DNA of 64,000 nt, from positions 62,001 to 126,000 of the forward strand of contig CAKKQC010000028.1 of assembly GCA_919901855.1 (NCBI GenBank), written 5' to 3'. Source of the DNA: a bacterium. Its GTDB lineage: Bacteria; Oederibacteriota; CAKKQC01. Below the pieces are notes generated by a model. That model was not told the DNA's origin. It did no database searches and saw only the letters and a list, made by a program, of their open reading frames with translations. This document shows positions 27,660 to 62,545 of this stretch, in pieces. The stretch's first letter is position 1; each line of letters starts with the position of its first letter. The translations under genes were made by a program, and so were the position numbers.

Positions 27660-28129
27660 GACGCGGCCCCCCGGGGCCCGAACGGGACCTCGCGGCGGGC
27701 TTCCAGGACCTCGGTCAGCGGGATCGTGCGGCGGGAGCCGTCCCGGAGCGCGAGCGTGAGCCCGGCCTCGCCGGCATCGGCCAGCGTGCCCGTGACCGCC
27801 CCCGACCGGACGCCCCGCAGGGCCACGCGCAGGGGGTGGCCGACCTGGCGGCGGAAGTCCCGGAGCGTCGTCAGCGGACGGTCGGCCCCCGGCGAGGAGA
27901 CCTCGAGGACATGGCGGAACGGCACCAGGTCCGCCGCGTCAATGGCGGCCTCGACCGCCCGGCTCACGGTCTCGCAGTCGGTGAGCGTGGTCGGGCCGGA
28001 CTCCCGCTCGATCGTGAGCCGGAGCACCTGCCGGCCGCTGTCGCGCACGAGCGTAACGTCGAGCAACTCCGCTCCTTCCGCCCGGCACAGGGGCTGGGCC
28101 ACATCCCGGACCTTCGCGACAATATCCAT
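27656..28129 (-). CDS. rimP: Ribosome maturation factor RimP
   Basis: A 157-aa 30S assembly factor. The family pattern is clear: AELLDVTLVRDSGRQVLRLTIERE in the N-terminal domain, DCETVSRAVEAAID, then FRHVLEVSSPGADRPL, ending in the SH3-like domain with IPLTEVLEARREVPF. The start ATG at 28129 has a Shine-Dalgarno-like AAAGGAT 9-10 bases upstream; the frame remains open to 28252 but that stretch is the mRNA leader. First gene of the rimP-nusA-infB-rbfA-nrnA operon. Confidence 0.93.
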   Translation of the reverse strand: MDIVAKVRDVAQPLCRAEGAELLDVTLVRDSGRQVLRLTIERESGPTTLTDCETVSRAVEAAIDAADLVPFRHVLEVSSPGADRPLTTLRDFRRQVGHPLRVALRGVRSGAVTGTLADAGEAGLTLALRDGSRRTIPLTEVLEARREVPFGPRGAAS

Positions 28130-28190
28130 GGTCTGGTCATCCTTTCGGCACGCCCCGGCGGCCGGACCTTCGAGGGGCCCCGAACAGCAT

Positions 28191-28218
28191 GAAGAGTGGG
28201 GGACTGCCCCCACTCTTC
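28191..28218 (-). promoter_or_regulatory. Strong hairpin in the rimP-nusA-infB mRNA leader
   Basis: A perfect 12-bp stem (GAAGAGTGGGGG and its complement) with a 4-base loop. It lies about 5 bases after the predicted transcription start and ends about 60 bases before the rimP ATG. There is no T-run after it on either strand, so it is not a plain intrinsic terminator. It could stabilise the mRNA 5' end or bind a regulator. Confidence 0.6.
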
Positions 28219-28229
28219 CGCCTCCATGG

Positions 28230-28259
28230 ATTAGAACATGTGTTATCCGCACTTATCAA
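28230..28259 (-). promoter_or_regulatory. Sigma-70 promoter of the rimP operon
   Basis: On the minus strand TTGATA (28259-28254) and TCTAAT (28235-28230) are separated by 18 bases; each matches consensus at 5 of 6 positions. They sit in the only clearly A/T-rich stretch of this region. Predicted start near 28223, giving a leader of about 95 bases. Confidence 0.65.
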
Positions 28260-28331
28260 CCCGTCAATTAAATGTATGACCCGTCTGCGTTTCAGAATGG
28301 GACGCGAGAGGTGTGGCCATGTCTCGCATCC

Positions 28332-28361
28332 TTGACAACCGTCAGTGCGCTCCCGTATCCT
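28332..28361 (+). promoter_or_regulatory. Sigma-70 promoter of the exported-protein cluster
   Basis: TTGACA (28332-28337, perfect -35) and TATCCT (28356-28361) are separated by 18 bases. Predicted start near 28368, giving a leader of about 90 bases before the ATG at 28458. Bases 28262-28331 upstream hold no other feature I can support. Confidence 0.65.
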
Positions 28362-28457
28362 CACCGTTATGGGGCCTGTGAGGTCCCGGAGAGACGGTCT
28401 TCTCGTGAGTTCTGGGTTTGGAAGAGTCAATGGTCAAAGCTACAAGGAGGCAAGGCA

Positions 28458-29150
28458 ATGCGCAAAACCGTAGCAATCCTGCTCGTCGCCGTGTGTGCGG
28501 TGGCGGCGGGCGGTCAGGTCGCGAAGGCGGCGGACCGGGCAGGGGTCGGCCTCGAATGGTCGATCGGTCCGGCGATGTCGCTCAGCGGCTTCGACATGAA
28601 GATGGGCCAGCAGTTCACGCTCAGCTGGAAGGTGTCAGAGAGCTTCTCGGTCGGGGTGTGGAATGGGAACGGGCTCTTCCGTGGGGAGAAGACGTACACG
28701 GACAACACGGCCGTTCCGTTGAAGCACACGCTCGTGACGCAGGGCACGACTTCGTCGAACGGCATCACGCTTTTGACGACGTTCCCCGGGATCTCGCTTC
28801 TCGATCTGGGTATCAACGTCGGCGTCGAGACCTTCACCGGCGGTGCCGCAACCGAGAATGTGCACACTGACGGGAGTGCGGGAGTTCCCGGACACTTCGG
28901 TGCTCCGGTGGCCCTGACCACCACGGCTGCCGTCCTCGGGATCGCGGCCAAGATTCACCTGATCAAGGCCGAAACCAAGACCGTGATGACGGACATCGGC
29001 ATCCTGGCTGGCCTCAACTTCGTCGAGTTTGCGGACACGGCCGTGTTCGGGACCCAGCAAGCCGTGGGCACCGTTCCATTGAAGAACATCGACTCCGTGG
29101 GTAGCTATAACAACCTCACGGTGATGATCAACGCGGCTCTCTGGTTCTGA
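28458..29150 (+). CDS. Exported barrel-like protein of unknown function
   Basis: A 230-aa protein with a clear signal peptide (MRKTVAILLVAVCAVAAGGQVAKA). The mature part is rich in alternating hydrophobic/polar strands and Gly, and ends in ALWF. A C-terminal aromatic residue after alternating residues is the usual recognition signal for outer-membrane beta-barrels, so it is probably a small barrel protein. The start is set by a strong AAGGAGG 7 bases before the ATG and by the signal peptide. Lower GC and strong ribosome binding compared with neighbours suggest high expression. I do not recognise the family. Confidence 0.75.
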   Translation: MRKTVAILLVAVCAVAAGGQVAKAADRAGVGLEWSIGPAMSLSGFDMKMGQQFTLSWKVSESFSVGVWNGNGLFRGEKTYTDNTAVPLKHTLVTQGTTSSNGITLLTTFPGISLLDLGINVGVETFTGGAATENVHTDGSAGVPGHFGAPVALTTTAAVLGIAAKIHLIKAETKTVMTDIGILAGLNFVEFADTAVFGTQQAVGTVPLKNIDSVGSYNNLTVMINAALWF

Positions 29151-29181
29151 TACGATCACTACAAGAGGAGACAAGAACACT

Positions 29182-29673
29182 ATGAAGAAGCTCTTTGCGG
29201 TGGCAGTGGTGCTTTCGCTGGCGGGGACGGCTTCGGCGGCGAGTGTCGCATTCGACTTCGGAACCAACTTCTACCACCCGACGGCCTCGGGCTATCTGAC
29301 CCAGAACGGCCAGAACTTCCTGGTGAGCTGGAATCTGGACAACGACCTAGGCCTCGGCGTTTACACCGAGCTCAGCAACTGGAGCAACGTCACGGGAACC
29401 GGCACGCTGGCGGTCTCGGCGATCTCGATTGCCAAGGGTGTCGTGAAGAACGTCGCGGTGGGTCTGAACCTCGGTTCCGGCACGACGGCTACCAACACGC
29501 GGCCGCTCGCGGACATCTTCGGGGTGGTGAACATCCTGTCGGGGTCGGGCGAGAAGGTCTCTGGTGCGCTTCGGGCCACGGCCTCGGCGCGGTTCTGCCA
29601 GGCGCAGTTGCAGGCGGCGGGACAGGTTGCTGACGGCTACAGCGTCGGGCTCTCGGTCCAGGTTGGGTTCTGA
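29182..29673 (+). CDS. Small exported barrel-like protein
   Basis: A 163-aa protein with signal peptide MKKLFAVAVVLSLAGTASA. The mature part has alternating strands (FLVSWNLDNDLGLGVYTEL) and ends in SVQVGF, a C-terminal Phe as in outer-membrane barrels. AGAGGAG precedes the ATG by 11 bases. It follows the 28458 gene by 31 bases, so both are likely on one transcript ended by the terminator at 29707-29756. The strand pattern (gene 1 has QFTLSWKVSESFSVGVW, this one has NFLVSWNLDNDLGLGVY) suggests the two are distant paralogues. Confidence 0.7.
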   Translation: MKKLFAVAVVLSLAGTASAASVAFDFGTNFYHPTASGYLTQNGQNFLVSWNLDNDLGLGVYTELSNWSNVTGTGTLAVSAISIAKGVVKNVAVGLNLGSGTTATNTRPLADIFGVVNILSGSGEKVSGALRATASARFCQAQLQAAGQVADGYSVGLSVQVGF

Positions 29674-29706
29674 GCTGACGGTATAGGAACGTTTCGATCG
29701 TGTTTC

Positions 29707-29756
29707 GGGAGGCCTCCGGCGCCGGTTCCGGTGAAGGGGGCCTCCCTGTCTTTTTT
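29707..29756 (+). terminator. Intrinsic terminator after the first two exported-protein genes
   Basis: GGGAGGCC (29707-29714) pairs with GGCCTCCC (29739-29746), with smaller CCGG pairings in the loop. The stem is followed by TGTCTTTTTT. It sits only 10 bases before the ATG of the next gene. Confidence 0.8.
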
Positions 29757-29765
29757 CATTCCTTC

Positions 29766-30299
29766 ATGACGTTCTTCCTGGTTCTGGCCATCGCATTGCC
29801 CGCGGCCGCGATGACGCCGACCGTGAGCATGACCACCGAGGATCCTCAGGGGACGACGGACGTTCACCAGCAGGCGTCGGGTTCGGCATTGCCGGTGCAG
29901 GTCCCGGCCCGAGCGCAGACGTTCGGGGCGACATTCCCGATGGTGGGCAACTTCCAGGCCGGTTTCCTGCACCGTGACTCGGTCGCGATCGTGGGCGGCA
30001 ACCGGTTCACGATGCGTACGAACGCGGTTTCGATCCTGCAGGGATTCAACAACGACCGCGTGGGGCTGACCATGAACTTCGGATGGGCGCAGGCCTACGG
30101 GGCGGCCATGGCGACGCTCAAGTCCGCGTGGGTCGCGGAGCCCGGAATTGTCGTCTACGCGCTGGCGAACGGCATGGTCGGCGTCTCGCTCTCCCGCGAA
30201 CTCGTAATCACGAACGGCGGCTATGCCTGGACCACCCTCATCGGTCTCCGGATCCGGGGGCCCGAGATGTTCCGGTCTTCGTCCAAGAGCAAGAAGTAG
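29766..30299 (+). CDS. Exported protein of unknown function
   Basis: A 177-aa protein beginning with a hydrophobic signal (MTFFLVLAIALPAAA). The rest contains Gly/Ala-rich amphipathic strands (TLIGLRIRG) and a basic end (SSSKSKK). The start is uncertain. The ATG at 29766 begins the signal peptide but has no Shine-Dalgarno sequence and lies just after an intrinsic terminator. A GTG at 29700 in the same frame would place the terminator inside the coding sequence. Expression would need read-through of that terminator or a promoter I cannot see. Not recognised. Confidence 0.55.
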   Translation: MTFFLVLAIALPAAAMTPTVSMTTEDPQGTTDVHQQASGSALPVQVPARAQTFGATFPMVGNFQAGFLHRDSVAIVGGNRFTMRTNAVSILQGFNNDRVGLTMNFGWAQAYGAAMATLKSAWVAEPGIVVYALANGMVGVSLSRELVITNGGYAWTTLIGLRIRGPEMFRSSSKSKK

Positions 30300-55762: not shown

Positions 55763-57148
55763 ATGGACAGGGAACTGTCGGAACCGCTCGGTTTGGTAGA
55801 ATGCACGCCAACGGTGGATAGGCTGCGACCAATAGGCATCGATCTGTTTGCGGGCGCCGGGGGGATGAGTCTCGGCTTCGAGCAAGCCGGTTTCGATGTC
55901 GTTGCGGCGGTGGAAATCGATCCAGTGCATGCGGCCGTTCACAAGTTCAACTTCCCCGCCTGTGCCATGCTGACTAGCTCGGCGATAGGGCTTACCGGAG
56001 CCGAGATCCGGAGGGCGGCCGGCATCGGGGCGCGGCGAGTCGACGTGGTATTCGGAGGCGCGCCGTGCCAGGGCTTCTCCCTGATCGGGCACCGCGCAAT
56101 GGACGATCCGCGCAATTCGCTCGTCGGCGAGTTCGTGAGAATCGTGTCCGAGCTCGAGGCGAGGTACTTCGTCTTCGAGAACGTGAGAGGCCTGACTCTC
56201 GGCCCTCATCGACAGTTCCTGGAAGAGGTCATCGAAGCCTTCCGAGTCGCGGGCTATCGGGTTCGCGTTCCTTGGCACGTCTTGGACGCGAGCGCCTATG
56301 GCGTTCCGCAACATCGCGAACGATTGATCCTTCTGGGCGCCCGAAAGGGTTGCCGAGTGCCGGAATACCCCCTACCCACGACGTTGGCTGCAGGAGGAGC
56401 GCCCACGCTTCCGCGCTTGCGAGTCGGCCCCACGTGTCGAGATGCACTCGGCGATCTGCCGGATGTGGACGCCTTCGAGGAGCTCTGGGAACGCGACGAG
56501 GTGAAGGCGGGCGAGTGGGGAAGACCCTCCCGCTATGGAGTGGAACTCCGATGCCTGAAGGGACTCGGATGGCACTTCGGCTATCGGAGGAAGATGGAAC
56601 CCGGGATTCTCACTTCTAGCATACGGACGAGGCATTCGGACATTTCGCGTCGCCGCTTTTCGGAGACTGCCGGCGGAGAGACCGAGCCGATCTCGCGTTT
56701 CTACAGGCTCCCTGCCGACGGAATCTGCAACACTCTTCGGGCCGGCACGGACGCTGCTCGCGGAGCATTCACCAGTCCGCGTCCCATTCATTACGCATTT
56801 CCTCGTTGCATCACGGTTCGGGAAATGGCTCGGTTGCACGGCTTCCCGGATTGGTTCCGATTGCACGAAACGAAGTGGCACGGCGCGCGCCAGGTCGGCA
56901 ACGCCGTACCCCCTCCGCTGGCACGGGCGATTGCGACTGTCGTGATGTCGGCGCTCGGGGTGCGGCCCAGCCGGCCGAGGGATACTATTGTGCTCGGAGA
57001 AACGTCCCTCCTGCGAATGGATACATCGCACGCCGCGGCCTACTGGGGCGTGCCGAATCCCATCGGCAAGCGAGACAGAAAGAGCGGCGCGAGGAAGCGG
57101 AAACAAGAGGAGATCGAAGTCGAGCGCCTTCAGGCGGTGCATGCGTAA
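55763..57148 (+). CDS. C5-cytosine DNA methyltransferase (type II)
   Basis: A 461-aa protein with all key C5-MTase motifs in order: I (D27-LFAGAGGMSLGFEQAGF) for SAM, IV with the catalytic Cys102 (GGAPCQGFSL), VI (FENVRG), VIII (QHRERLILLGAR), a target-recognition region (about 215-330), IX (REMARLHGFPDWF) and X (RQVGNAVPPPLA). It methylates cytosine in a short DNA target, unknown here, protecting it from the partner nuclease. The start may be ATG 55763 or GTG 55814; the latter has TAGAAT 11 bases upstream. GC is clearly lower than in flanking genes, suggesting transfer. The following gene begins on the last base of its stop codon (TAATG). Confidence 0.95.
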   Translation: MDRELSEPLGLVECTPTVDRLRPIGIDLFAGAGGMSLGFEQAGFDVVAAVEIDPVHAAVHKFNFPACAMLTSSAIGLTGAEIRRAAGIGARRVDVVFGGAPCQGFSLIGHRAMDDPRNSLVGEFVRIVSELEARYFVFENVRGLTLGPHRQFLEEVIEAFRVAGYRVRVPWHVLDASAYGVPQHRERLILLGARKGCRVPEYPLPTTLAAGGAPTLPRLRVGPTCRDALGDLPDVDAFEELWERDEVKAGEWGRPSRYGVELRCLKGLGWHFGYRRKMEPGILTSSIRTRHSDISRRRFSETAGGETEPISRFYRLPADGICNTLRAGTDAARGAFTSPRPIHYAFPRCITVREMARLHGFPDWFRLHETKWHGARQVGNAVPPPLARAIATVVMSALGVRPSRPRDTIVLGETSLLRMDTSHAAAYWGVPNPIGKRDRKSGARKRKQEEIEVERLQAVHA

Positions 57149-57957
57149 TGGCGGGAGCCAAGCAGCAGGGGCGCTACGGCGCTCTCGTTGCCAAGCTGTT
57201 CAAGGATCGGTATCGACCGGGTAAGACGCACGTGCCGTTCACGCGCGACGATCTGAGAACGGCAGCCAACGCGCTCCGCATCGTTCTGCCGAAGAACTTG
57301 GGCGACGTCGTGTATTCGGTGCGATACCGGGCCGATCTGCCCGATGCAATCGTGAAGACGGAGCATGGCGGCAGGAAATGGATGATCCTCGGCGAAGGAA
57401 TCGCGAAATACGCGTTCAGACTCATGAAACTCGAACCAATCGTGCCGAATCCTGGCATGTCGGTCGTCAAGATACCCGACGCCACTCCCGAGATCGTGGC
57501 ACGCTACGCACAGAGCGACGAGCAGGCGCTTCTCTCCAAGGTTCGATACAACCGGATCATCGACATCTTTCTGGGCATTGCCACCTTCTCCCTGCAGAAT
57601 CACCTGCGAACGACGGTGGAGGGCATCGGCCAGGTCGAGCTGGACGAACTATACGTGGGAGTGGACCGGCGAGGCCGGCAATACGTGATACCCGTACAGG
57701 CGAAGGGGGGGAGCGACAAGCACTCGCCCGTCCAGACGCTGCAGGATATCGCATGCTGTCGCGAGAAATTCGATGGCCTCGTTTGTCGTCCCATTTCCGC
57801 CCAGTTTATGGACAACGAGACCATAGCCATCTTCGAGCTGACGGAAGAGCAGGACTCCGTGAGGATCGTCGAGGAGAAGCACTACAAGCTCGTGCCGGCG
57901 AGCCAAATCAGCAAGAAGGATCTGGAGGCCTACGGCAGAGCTCGGCCGGATCTCTAG
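57148..57957 (+). CDS. Putative type II restriction endonuclease
   Basis: A 269-aa protein immediately after the methyltransferase (TAATG overlap), the usual place of the cognate nuclease. A PD-(D/E)xK-like core is visible: E164-x-D166-E167, D173 in GVDRRGRQYVIPV, then Q184-A-K186 as a Q-x-K variant of the E-x-K motif, followed by a helix (SPVQTLQDIACC). The N-terminal part includes a basic stretch (LFKDRYRPGKTHVPFTRDDLR). I do not recognise the exact restriction family or target site. Its stop codon overlaps the convergent vsr stop codon (CTAG). Confidence 0.72.
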   Translation: MAGAKQQGRYGALVAKLFKDRYRPGKTHVPFTRDDLRTAANALRIVLPKNLGDVVYSVRYRADLPDAIVKTEHGGRKWMILGEGIAKYAFRLMKLEPIVPNPGMSVVKIPDATPEIVARYAQSDEQALLSKVRYNRIIDIFLGIATFSLQNHLRTTVEGIGQVELDELYVGVDRRGRQYVIPVQAKGGSDKHSPVQTLQDIACCREKFDGLVCRPISAQFMDNETIAIFELTEEQDSVRIVEEKHYKLVPASQISKKDLEAYGRARPDL

Positions 57958-58385
57958 CGCTTCGTAGCCGGCCCCAGGAACGCACCGACTTTTGCGGCTA
58001 GGTCCCCGGGATGCCGTCTCAACTGGCACTGCCAGACGGTCAGGACGGTCCATCCTCTTCTGCGTAGCCGCACTCGCGTCCTGCGGTCTCGTTCCCTGTT
58101 CTCTCTCCGTTTTGCACTCCAGAAGGCCCGATGCGACTTGGGAGCTCTGCCGTATCGGCACTTATGTGCGTGCCAGAAACAGCCATGCACGAGGATGACT
58201 CGTCTTCGTGCAGGAAAGGCCACGTCGGGCGTGCCCGGAAGGCTATGCGGATGCAGGATGTAGTCCTTTCGATAGCGATAGCCACCGGCAGAGAGGAGGC
58301 GCCGCATGAGCAGCTCGGGGCCGGTGTTCTTACCCCGGACACGGCGCATTAGCGCGCTCCGCCTCCGGACGCTAAGCCGATCCAT
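57954..58385 (-). CDS. vsr: Very short patch repair endonuclease
   Basis: A 143-aa nuclease that nicks T:G mismatches arising from deamination of 5-methylcytosine, normally accompanying a C5 methyltransferase. Conserved elements: MRRVRGKNTGPELLMRRLL, the catalytic D54 in LPGTPDVAF, and the zinc/active-site HGCFWHAHKC with Trp71. FWSAKRRENRERDRR and GWTVLTVWQCQL follow; the usual VWEC is VWQC here. It is convergent to the restriction gene. The combination of methyltransferase, nuclease and Vsr makes a complete restriction-modification and repair cassette. Confidence 0.93.
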   Translation of the reverse strand: MDRLSVRRRSALMRRVRGKNTGPELLMRRLLSAGGYRYRKDYILHPHSLPGTPDVAFPARRRVILVHGCFWHAHKCRYGRAPKSHRAFWSAKRRENRERDRRTRVRLRRRGWTVLTVWQCQLRRHPGDLAAKVGAFLGPATKR

Positions 58386-58480
58386 GAGACCATTACATCA
58401 AGCTGGTGGGTGCGAATACGAATCGCGGTGCGGATCCGGAGAACGCTTGGCTCTCCGCGCTCTCCGGGAGCCAGACGGCA
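58386..58480. other. Intergenic segment upstream of vsr
   Basis: These bases hold no ORF with protein-like composition. They should contain the vsr promoter on the minus strand, but I see no convincing -35/-10 pair. Confidence 0.3.
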
Positions 58481-58774
58481 CTACCCGCCAGTTGGGGCCT
58501 TATCGTGTTCGTGTTGCGGTTCGTACCACCAGAAGTTGATGGGCTGCTTCGGGTTGTACGTCCGAAGGCCCTTCGATGAAGGGAGCAATGCTCCGAGGCT
58601 CGCCTTGACTTGATGTGCTCAAGAACATTGAGATCGAACCGCTGTCGAGCAGGCCCGAGACTGACGCGCCTTCTCGACTCCGGGCCACCGGGACTTGACT
58701 GGCTCATCCATATTCGGACAGAGCATCCAGACTTCGATGTGCTTGACACGTCCGTCGCTCCATGCCAGCATCAT
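58481..58774 (-). pseudogene. Possible decayed gene upstream of vsr
   Basis: Reading the minus strand from ATG 58774, one frame gives 51 codons with protein-like content (LAWSDGRVKHIEVWMLCPNM), then an in-frame TGA (58621-58619), then 45 codons ending at 58481 with TYNPKQPINFWWYEPQHEHD. In the middle, a neighbouring frame reads more naturally (QRFDLNVLEHIKSRRASEHC), as expected from two compensating frameshifts. It may be a broken gene of the same cassette, or chance. No family is recognised. Confidence 0.3.
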
Positions 58775-58791
58775 GCGGGAAGGGGGTGTAG

Positions 58792-61488
58792 ATGCCGTAT
58801 ATCTGTGACGATTGCGTTCGACCGAGCGAGGAGCGCGTCATCCTCGAGGGGCAAGCGGTGCGATGCTCTGGATGCGGCAAGCGCTTCCACCCAGACTGCT
58901 TCTTGGCTCACAATGGGCAGCGACACAACGGCAAGGCAACGTCCTCACCGCTTAGAGAACTAGGCGACCCCGGCGGCAATCGGGGCTCTGACAAGTTCCA
59001 GGAGATGGCGGATGCATCTGAGTTGCGAGGGGCCATTCTCGAGGCCCAAGAGGAAGACCAAGTCGTCTGGGCTCTCGTAAAATCCTGCGCGGTCTTCGGT
59101 TTTGAAAACGCCCGGTACTATGATGCCAACTATGATCGTCTCGCCAAGGAATACGGGTACACGCTGCGTGCCGCCTCCCGGACCTATGCTGGGGCTCCGG
59201 TCGGCTTTACGATATACAGGGCCACCATCTCGGATGCGGCAATTAAGTCGCGCGAGCCAGCGTGGGAAACTTATGATGAAGCCCATGCCGATCTGCTGAA
59301 GCGCGAATGGATCAACAAGCTGGAACTCCAGGGGCAGGGCTGGGTCGACATTCCCATACACTCCGGCGCGCGGCTGGTTGGTCTCTGGGCAATGGATCGT
59401 AAGAGCGCGCGCAAGCTCACAGGGACGGAAAGGCATCACCTGCGAGAGACGGCCTCACTTGCCGCCCTCAAAGTTGACGGACTTCGGGAGCGATGGATAT
59501 GTTCGGTCATGGATCGCCTGGTAGGGAGATCGACGGCGCAGGATGACTGCAAGGCGGAATCGGCCCATTCCTCGGACTCGTTCATGAGGTCGCTATGCTT
59601 GGACCTGAACGCGGTATTCGGTTCCCTCTTCTTGTTCGATCCTGTTCGGGGAAGGATCGCGAAGAAGGTCGAGTTCCTCAACGATGGCGTGGGGGCTTCG
59701 GAAGTCAGCGCGCCGTGGGATAGGGAGTACCGCCTCGGCCAGTGCCTAACTGGCAAGGCGTTCGTGGACAGCCGGCTGCGGTTCATCCCCGATGTAGGTC
59801 GACTGAAGAGCGAGGAACCGGACCTCATCGAAAGTAGATCTGAAGACTGGCACGTGCTTGAGGGGCGCGAGCCGTTGAGGACCATCATGTATGGGAAGCT
59901 TATCGTTCCCCCAGACGCATCTGCTCTACTTCGGTTCATCAACAGGACGGATAGGCCAACACTCCCATTTACGCCAGCCCACGAAGCGCTCATGGATCGT
60001 GCCGCCCTCTGTCTATCGCAAGTCTTGGCGCTTGAGCATGCCTCGCAGAGACTGCGCTCAGTGTGGCAGGGGTTCTCTTTCGCTTTGGGTAGGCCCTACC
60101 AGGGATCCGCAAACTACGCCGCCATCGCGCGGGCCGCTGCGGATATCGGGTACCCGGTCTTCCTCATCACGATCTGGCAGGATGACGGAGTGCTCAGTGC
60201 ATCATGGGCCAACGATAAGGAACTGAGCTCCGAGATGAAGCCTCTTGAGGGGGCGGCTGAGTGGCCCGAGATTCATGGACTCGGCCCGCCAGGCACCAAG
60301 AGCCTCGGTGCAATACCACGAGCCTTGCGTAATGTGCTTGAGAGGCGAGGGGTTCGAAGGATCTATGTTGTGCCGACATCATCAGGGAGGATGGAGGCGG
60401 CCATTCGGGAGCATACGGTTTCCATCATCCCCATCCGGATTGACGACGCGGAGAACGCGGAAGCTGAGGAACAGCGTTCTCCGGATGCCATACCGGATTC
60501 GCACCTTTCCCTGGATGTTCTGGGGGGCTTGGTGGGCAGCATCCGAACCATTGCTCACAATCGGGATCTACTGCTTTCGGCTGACGAGGCGATCGGCACG
60601 ATTGCGCACGAGATGAACACGCCTTCCAGTGCGCTTGTGACGATGGCGGGGGTAATGGCTGACCAGTTGAGGGAGCTTTCATCGGCCATTCCTGATGAGG
60701 TGCATTCGGAGCTCGGCTATCAGGAAGTCATGGACAATGGGCATTTTAGGTGGCTCCGCGCTGTCGGGAGGAGGCAGATCGGAGCCTATCTCGAAACTAT
60801 TGATCGCAGGATCGACCATTACGCCGTCTACGTGCAGAAAGTTGTCGGCGATGCGCTCGTTTGGGCGAGGATGGGAGACAAGCAGATCGAGATGGACTTC
60901 ACCGACGTCAACATCCTCGACCTCCTCAAGTTGGTGGTTCACGAAGCCAAGAAACGGCTAGATGAGAAAGAGGCCGAGATCAGAGCTCCTTTCCGCGTGA
61001 AGATGGGCGAGAACGTCTCGAAAGTGGGATCTCTGGTTGCGGACCTTGTCCTCCTCCACAAGATGTTCGCCAACCTGCTCGACAACGCGATCAAGTACTC
61101 CCACTCCAGGCCAGGCTTCGACAATGTCATCGTGATCAGCGCGGAACGTCAGACGGGCCTAGTAGACGTCGCATTCACTAACTGGGGGCTCGGCATCGAC
61201 GAATCCGACTACGAGAACATCTTCGACAGGTTCTACCGGAGTTCGGTGCGGGATCGAAGGCATACCGTGAGAGGTGTCGGTCTGGGACTGGCGACCTGCA
61301 AGAAGATTGCGCTACTTCATGGGGGGACCATACGGGTTCAGTCCAGCCCGACGCTTGATGACCCCGATCGTGTAAAGGCAAAGGAGGGATATGAAACGAC
61401 GTTCACGGTTCGCCTCTCCACCAACCTGAAGAGGGGTCGCAAGGACATCATGGGGGCGGGAGTGCCATCTCATGGGGGCGACAAGTAG
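58792..61488 (+). CDS. Soluble histidine kinase with N-terminal RING/treble-clef-like zinc finger and GAF-like sensor region
   Basis: An 898-aa protein without transmembrane segments. Residues 5-45 have zinc-ligand spacing C5-x2-C8, C25-x2-C28, H33-x2-C36, H40/H45, like small prokaryotic RING/PHD-type fingers. Two or three GAF-like sensor domains follow (about 75-235, with GWVDIPIHSGARLVGLWAMDRKS; 240-415; 420-560). The kinase core has the H-box HEMNTP (H606), N-box NLLDNAIKYS (N761), NWGLGIDESD in place of the usual DxGxG, F-box IFDRFYR and G2 GVGLGLATCKKIALLHGG. AAGGGGG precedes the ATG. The receiver gene follows after 2 bases. The combination of zinc finger and kinase beside a restriction cassette is unusual; signal and output are unknown. 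Confidence 0.85.
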   Translation: MPYICDDCVRPSEERVILEGQAVRCSGCGKRFHPDCFLAHNGQRHNGKATSSPLRELGDPGGNRGSDKFQEMADASELRGAILEAQEEDQVVWALVKSCAVFGFENARYYDANYDRLAKEYGYTLRAASRTYAGAPVGFTIYRATISDAAIKSREPAWETYDEAHADLLKREWINKLELQGQGWVDIPIHSGARLVGLWAMDRKSARKLTGTERHHLRETASLAALKVDGLRERWICSVMDRLVGRSTAQDDCKAESAHSSDSFMRSLCLDLNAVFGSLFLFDPVRGRIAKKVEFLNDGVGASEVSAPWDREYRLGQCLTGKAFVDSRLRFIPDVGRLKSEEPDLIESRSEDWHVLEGREPLRTIMYGKLIVPPDASALLRFINRTDRPTLPFTPAHEALMDRAALCLSQVLALEHASQRLRSVWQGFSFALGRPYQGSANYAAIARAAADIGYPVFLITIWQDDGVLSASWANDKELSSEMKPLEGAAEWPEIHGLGPPGTKSLGAIPRALRNVLERRGVRRIYVVPTSSGRMEAAIREHTVSIIPIRIDDAENAEAEEQRSPDAIPDSHLSLDVLGGLVGSIRTIAHNRDLLLSADEAIGTIAHEMNTPSSALVTMAGVMADQLRELSSAIPDEVHSELGYQEVMDNGHFRWLRAVGRRQIGAYLETIDRRIDHYAVYVQKVVGDALVWARMGDKQIEMDFTDVNILDLLKLVVHEAKKRLDEKEAEIRAPFRVKMGENVSKVGSLVADLVLLHKMFANLLDNAIKYSHSRPGFDNVIVISAERQTGLVDVAFTNWGLGIDESDYENIFDRFYRSSVRDRRHTVRGVGLGLATCKKIALLHGGTIRVQSSPTLDDPDRVKAKEGYETTFTVRLSTNLKRGRKDIMGAGVPSHGGDK

Positions 61489-61490
61489 CG

Positions 61491-62249
61491 ATGCGCATCC
61501 TCTGGCTTGAGGACGTCCCGGAGGAGGTCGGGCGCGTAACGCGCTCGCTCATGCGAGCTTCACATGAGCTGCGGGTGGCAAGGAGCTTCGACGAAGCCGT
61601 CGCGTATGTCGCGGAATCCGTTGCGGCGGGTGAGTACTATGACCTTGTGCTTCTCGATGCTCGCCTGGAGGAGCAGCACAAAGGTTCAATACTCTTTGGC
61701 CAGATGAGAAGGGGAGAGCACGGCTCGTGGGGCAAGGAAGTATGGGTGATTTTTCTGACCAAGTATAAGGAGAGCATCGTAGGCCAGATCCGTGGGATCG
61801 AGCCACCTCCGCTGGGGGTGATCAGGAAACCTCTGAGCATGGAGGAGGTGAGAGATTGCTTCGGGAAGATCGGTGTTTCACTTTCGGAGACAGCCGTGAC
61901 CGTTAGCGTTCCTCCAATCCAAGTGAATCCGTCTGCTCCTGGTGTTCCCCCGGCGCTTGTTCAATCGACCGTGAGGATCACCCTCTTCCCCAAAGATCTT
62001 GCGGAGCTTGATGCGGTCGTGAGAGAACTCACCGCGAGTACAGCAATGGAGATTGAGTTGGCGGGCCACCATGTTGCAAGGATCCTAGATAGCTCGGACG
62101 AGAATGGCCGTCTTGAATGCATAAAGAGATTCAGGGATGGTCTGGCCAAGGCTCCAGTCGCGATCAGAGAGGCACTCCGCGTCTCCGCAGCGGGGCGCGG
62201 GGCCGGCGGATCGGCGATGGAGTTCCTGCGAAGTCTAGCTGGTATGTGA
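61491..62249 (+). CDS. Response-regulator receiver protein with unrecognised C-terminal domain
   Basis: A 252-aa protein. Residues 1-125 form a receiver domain: acidic pair E7-D8 (WLEDVPEE), phosphoacceptor D56 in LVLLDARL, Thr in VIFLTKY, and Lys in VIRKPLS. The loop around residues 60-80 is longer than usual. A Pro-rich linker (about 136-152) leads to a ~95-residue, mostly helical C-terminal domain (FPKDLAELDAVVRELTASTA...RFRDGLAKAPVAIREAL). This matches no DNA-binding output domain I know (no OmpR-, NarL- or NtrC-type helix pattern). It is almost certainly the partner of the upstream kinase, being 2 bases downstream. Confidence 0.8.
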   Translation: MRILWLEDVPEEVGRVTRSLMRASHELRVARSFDEAVAYVAESVAAGEYYDLVLLDARLEEQHKGSILFGQMRRGEHGSWGKEVWVIFLTKYKESIVGQIRGIEPPPLGVIRKPLSMEEVRDCFGKIGVSLSETAVTVSVPPIQVNPSAPGVPPALVQSTVRITLFPKDLAELDAVVRELTASTAMEIELAGHHVARILDSSDENGRLECIKRFRDGLAKAPVAIREALRVSAAGRGAGGSAMEFLRSLAGM

Positions 62250-62545
62250 GCGCAGGCATATGGTCCGAGCCGAATACTGAGGTCTATCTGCCCTAGATAA
62301 TCGGAACTGACTCACCGTAGAGTGGCTGCCGCCATCCTCACCTCAGCTCATCCCGATCGAGTTACTGTGGGGCCATCTGGACAACACGACACACGCCAAC
62401 ACGCCGGCAGAGAACCGGACTCTCCTGGGGCGACGAACGCGACGCGGGATCTCGCGGGTTCAGGCGAAGCCGTCCATTGGTCGCGGCTTCCTGTCACACA
62501 CCGGCTTGTTCACGTACTGATGTAACTCTATTGCGCGAGCCCCAA
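62250..62545. other. Non-coding right edge of the accessory island
   Basis: These 296 bases lie between the receiver gene and the convergent ABC permease gene. Short open frames here lack codon bias or ribosome-binding sites. No tRNA, integrase or attachment-site repeat is evident. GC rises to the genomic level at 62546. Confidence 0.4.

Follow-up and report, generated by a model that had tools for sequence, protein, structure and literature searches.

A cytosolic histidine kinase with a predicted zinc finger and a receiver protein with an orphan, predicted-helical domain, encoded side by side in an island of foreign composition

The window, a 64,000-nucleotide stretch of bacterial DNA, encodes a real kinase/receiver pair, consisting of a cytosolic histidine kinase and a receiver protein, within an island of foreign composition that also carries a restriction-modification (RM) cassette. 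The pair is a rare variant within a known kind of signalling system. On balance, we lean towards reading it as a horizontally acquired cytosolic two-component pair in which a finger/GAF front end would sense a cue, phosphate would pass from H606 of the kinase to D56 of the receiver, and a helical domain would deliver the output by binding protein. A zinc-finger sensor, as predicted here, coupled to a family-less and apparently non-DNA-binding output is unusual among two-component systems, and one that shares its island with RM genes can reasonably be put forward as a candidate for a signalling output or effector of a new type. The pair is a single copy without relatives, and is thus a lead, not yet a discovered system.

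Both open reading frames were confirmed at the coordinates in Table 1, are uninterrupted, and together stay open across 3.4 kb. Their GC contents at codon positions 1/2/3 are of coding type (0.62/0.44/0.69 for the kinase gene and 0.65/0.46/0.64 for the receiver gene). The gap between the two genes is 2 bp, which suggests that they form a single operon. In agreement with the earlier note, which had placed the pair beside an RM cassette in lower-GC DNA, the genes for the C5 methyltransferase, the restriction enzyme, Vsr, the kinase and the receiver have a GC3 of 0.64-0.77, compared with 0.89-0.96 in the genes that flank the island to left and right. Because of this contrast, and of an IS630-type remnant near the right edge, the region at about 55.7-62.5 kb has a foreign composition and bears a mobile-element scar.

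Table 1. Coordinates (window positions) and supporting evidence for the features of the island.
Feature	Position	Strand	Evidence or remarks
C5-cytosine DNA methyltransferase	55763..57148	+	PADLOC PDLC03326 E 2e-171; DNA_methylase E 2e-61
Type II restriction endonuclease	57148..57957	+	PADLOC PDLC03404 E 9e-117; plasmid relatives 53-57% identical
Vsr mismatch endonuclease	57954..58385	-	TIGR00632 E 3e-38
Cytosolic histidine kinase, 898 aa	58792..61488	+	Intact ORF; HATPase_c E 2e-19; HK853-like core; no TM segment
Predicted treble-clef-type zinc finger, kinase residues 1-47	58792..58932	+	Ligand spacing; sub-threshold C1/RING-like/PHD matches
GAF-like sensor domain (weak), kinase residues about 101-226	59092..59469	+	GAF E 0.0086, GAF_3 E 0.04 (fragment)
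No recognisable domain, kinase residues 234-593	59491..60570	+	Two overlapping Pfam fragments
DHp and HATPase core: H606, N-box, G1 box with N797, F-box, G2 box	60583..61419	+	Pfam and 3dge alignment
Receiver protein, 252 aa	61491..62249	+	Intact ORF, downstream of kinase gene
Receiver domain (E7/D8, D56, T90, K113)	61491..61878	+	Response_reg E 1.6e-4; residues checked
Putative orphan helical output domain, receiver residues 148-252	61932..62246	+	After Pro-rich linker; no Pfam match
IS630-type transposase C-terminus remnant	62311..62517	+	DDE_3 E 1.5e-4; between receiver and ABC transporter genes

In the synteny comparison for an empty site, no relative in the phylum spanned the full length of the left flanking protein, and on the right the ABC transporter gene was multi-copy. 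The gap of about 400 bp between the Vsr and kinase genes (58386-58791) holds no intact gene, only interrupted frames without a family match; a second transposase remnant suspected there was searched for and gave no match. We note that the window, otherwise 70% GC, has another dip, to about 62%, at 28001-30000.

The histidine kinase part of the first protein starts at about residue 598. Its core matches T. maritima HK853 (PDB 3dge) at E 1e-14, with H606 aligned to the H-box histidine (H-E-L-R-T-P), which we take to be H260 in literature numbering. The N-box, F-box and G2 box are intact, and the G1 box reads T-N-W-G-L-G-I at residues 796-802, so that N797 replaces the usual Asp of D-x-G-x-G. That motif is a usual, not an absolute, feature of the G1 box; its substitution here could weaken ATP binding. 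The complete HisKA/HATPase core claimed in the earlier note therefore stands in respect of the HATPase_c match (E 2e-19 in Pfam) and the aligned H606, but is qualified by the G1-box Asn and by HisKA, which matched on a kinase fragment only and below the Pfam cut-off (E 0.027). No hydrophobic segment attains transmembrane strength (highest 19-residue mean, 1.49), as anticipated for a kinase said to have no membrane segment.

At its front end, the kinase is predicted to carry a treble-clef-type finger, to which no single class is assigned. The candidate ligands are C5, C8, C25, C28, H33, C36, H40 and H45, and five of the 12 Cys residues of the kinase fall within residues 1-36. Ligands 1-6 agree in order and spacing with the PHD/RING/C1 treble-clef group; viewed as an eight-ligand cross-brace, six ligands are PHD-like in spacing and the final pair, H40/H45, is uncertain. 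The PHD-like spacing C-x2-C-x(9-21)-C-x(2-4)-C-x(4-5)-H-x2-C, a pattern picked post hoc, occurred in none of 200,000 shuffles of the kinase. Searched alone against Pfam, the N-terminal segment matched C1_1 (E 3e-4), zf-RING-like (E 5e-4) and PHD (5e-3), all under the cut-offs. The ligands and these sub-threshold matches are in line with the RING/treble-clef-like finger proposed earlier for the kinase start, whereas the GAF-like sensor domains, given there in the plural, are reduced to one weak match at about residues 101-226, with no GAF detected by Pfam in residues 234-430 or 424-593, two overlapping fragments. A match to Glyco_trans_4_4 within residues 234-593 (E 0.02) lies far under the Pfam cut-off and is not credible.

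The receiver domain proper (residues 4-121) is diverged, its Response_reg match of E 1.6e-4 falling under the Pfam cut-off, and has kept its active-site residues: the acidic pair E7/D8, the phospho-acceptor D56, T90 and K113. Two-component membership is thus visible on both sides, the kinase having a HATPase domain and the phospho-acceptor His H606, and the receiver having the acidic pair, phospho-acceptor Asp, Thr/Ser and Lys. In the C-terminal part, region 138-252 has no Pfam family even at E 10, the domain has no PDB sequence match with E below 0.6, and Foldseek matched its model to nothing below E 0.2; for these reasons it is, by sequence, an orphan domain. Among viral structures, Foldseek ranked a Streptomyces phage immunity repressor best, at an E of 0.26, which is too weak to interpret. 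Modelled alone with single-sequence AlphaFold2, the domain was predicted with low confidence to form five helices, at a mean pLDDT of 61 (the whole receiver protein, modelled without an alignment, had a mean pLDDT of 40), so the unclassified helical C-terminal domain described in the earlier note is supported as a prediction.

As to what this domain does, the transcriptional-regulator test found no recognisable C-terminal DNA-binding domain in the receiver protein (no family at E up to 10), and the net charge over the domain's roughly 100 residues is about 0. We favour protein contact over DNA binding, as the domain is not basic and shows no detectable match to a DNA-binding family, and the output is probably of that type; given the low-confidence model, a novel fold that binds DNA or RNA is possible.

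We then searched for relatives of the parts that are specific to the pair. For the N-terminal two thirds of the kinase, only its own genome matched among about 965 distinct genomes (sets of 384, 3, 398, 184 and 4), and the receiver C-terminal domain had no relative in about 670 genomes (sets of 288 and 384, the latter apparently containing an earlier 59-genome set). Non-self matches of the receiver protein had E values of 2e-5 or worse and were essentially confined to the receiver domain; those followed up in other genomes all lacked the C-terminal domain and proved to be either chance matches or ordinary receivers, of the OmpR type or otherwise. A kinase-only scan of genome contigs likewise returned generic HATPase relatives only. 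Plasmid records, searched up to E 10, yielded nothing for the specific parts; the best two matches of the kinase core on plasmids, one in an unannotated record and the second in a kinase amid housekeeping genes, had the generic core alone in common with it. In phage records the receiver had no match up to E 10, and viral contigs held nothing for the pair when searched with short exact peptide patterns, which detect close relatives only. The pair is thus rare at this search sensitivity, not proven unique, in a small and sparsely sampled phylum, and its orphan status leaves it without conservation support for being functional.

The RM cassette next door has a different distribution. Its methyltransferase and restriction endonuclease genes overlap by one base, and relatives of the endonuclease occur in 65 plasmid records, the best of them 53-57% identical; many of the small plasmids among these, from Paracoccus, Klebsiella and Salmonella, are predicted to be mobilizable. 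A Paracoccus plasmid carries the Vsr, methyltransferase and endonuclease genes, a Cryobacterium plasmid the methyltransferase and endonuclease genes, and a 4.2-kb Klebsiella plasmid the endonuclease gene; no kinase or receiver gene is annotated on these three in the stretches shown, for which the gene table is incomplete. Long endonuclease relatives were also found in six other genomes, with methyltransferase and Vsr matches beside two of them, and neither half of the kinase nor the receiver was found near any of the six at E 0.01, in stretches of up to about 8 kb per side, less at contig ends. Since its relatives occur elsewhere without the kinase or receiver in the contexts examined, the cassette is an independent mobile module, and adjacency is therefore weak evidence for a function common to the pair and the cassette. 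In a genome of the same family, an endonuclease relative near a contig end has one stop counted inside the match, and is possibly a decaying copy.

In the reading that we prefer, an internal cue would be sensed through the N-terminal zinc finger and GAF-like domain and would control autophosphorylation of the kinase on H606; the phosphate would be passed to D56, and the phosphorylated receiver would use its small C-terminal domain, predicted to be helical, most likely to bind another protein rather than DNA, while the pair would travel in the island together with the independent mobile cassette. Cue-controlled His autophosphorylation and transfer to a receiver Asp are established two-component biochemistry; for this pair we infer the phosphotransfer, the cue, the protein-contact output and any benefit to the host. 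Counting for this explanation are the 2-bp spacing, the catalytic and receiver residues, the lack of transmembrane segments, the GC3 contrast and the IS630-type remnant, together with a C-terminal domain that has no DNA-binding family, carries a net charge of 0 and is predicted to be helical. Furthermore, RM relatives occur without the pair, and its specific parts have no relatives. Against it count the G1-box Asn, HisKA and receiver matches below cut-off, the low confidence of the output-domain model, and the orphan status.

Receiver proteins of this size are mostly transcriptional, and a C-terminal domain predicted to be helical would suit an ordinary accessory two-component system that controls genes of the island or of the host through a DNA-binding domain, either diverged or new. 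As the C-terminal domain matches no HTH family up to E 10, has a net charge of 0 and has neither a PDB sequence nor a fold relative, we regard this as unlikely. The pair could instead have come in with the island and now be an inactive, decaying passenger; both frames, however, run uninterrupted across 3.4 kb, their composition is of coding type, and the receiver active-site residues are intact, so that even with an IS remnant nearby, an Asn in the kinase G1 box and no conservation available for the pair, it seems to us very improbable.

The earlier note had put forward a role in phage defence. By analogy with Detocs, which sets the precedent of two-component signalling used in defence (PMC11249213), the kinase might detect infection by phage or plasmid and the receiver C-terminal domain might be, or recruit, a toxic effector, as would be allowed by a cytosolic pair that has a non-standard output and shares its island with an RM cassette. 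Adjacency was the sole link to defence, and it is weakened because RM relatives occur elsewhere without the pair; in addition, no known effector is similar to the output domain, no relatives turned up in the phage records and viral contigs searched, and neither protein matched PADLOC models beyond the generic HATPase region, the receiver having no match at all. (A PDC-M43B match to the kinase, E 2e-7, covers the HATPase region only, is superfamily-level and was rejected.) We consider this reading doubtful, and the defence role is not supported by these results. Bolder still, and decidedly improbable in our estimation, is a new cytosolic immunity module in which the treble-clef/GAF kinase would sense an invader- or damage-derived ligand and signal through the receiver to a novel helical effector that limits infection.

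Finally, the pair and its surroundings can be set beside known systems. Detocs is a family of defensive two-component systems with three genes, and in its best-described member the effector is a PNP (PMC11249213); the likeness, by analogy, lies in two-component signalling with a non-transcriptional-looking output. Here, however, there are two genes, not three, with Vsr on the opposite strand upstream of the kinase and the IS remnant followed by the ABC transporter gene downstream of the receiver; neither a PNP nor another known effector is fused to the receiver, and no defence-database model is matched. The pair shows no Detocs hallmark, and we rejected Detocs membership on these grounds. Plasmid p12374 of Paracoccus seriniphilus (NZ_CP067133.1) has the same methyltransferase, endonuclease and Vsr genes, with the endonuclease 57.5% identical, but no annotated kinase or receiver in the stretch shown, so this likeness concerns the neighbouring cassette and not the pair. 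With prokaryotic RING/PHD/C1-type treble-clef fingers, the kinase finger has the C4-H-C order and the spacing of the first six ligands in common, whereas it is sub-threshold to every Pfam finger family and its last ligand pair would, putatively, be His/His. With HK853-type kinases (3dge), the kinase shares the phospho-acceptor His in H-E-x-x-T-P, the N-box, the F-box and the G2 box; unlike them, it has Asn at the G1-box Asp and a longer stretch from the H606 helix to the second DHp helix, and in place of a membrane sensor it has a predicted zinc finger and a GAF-like front end.
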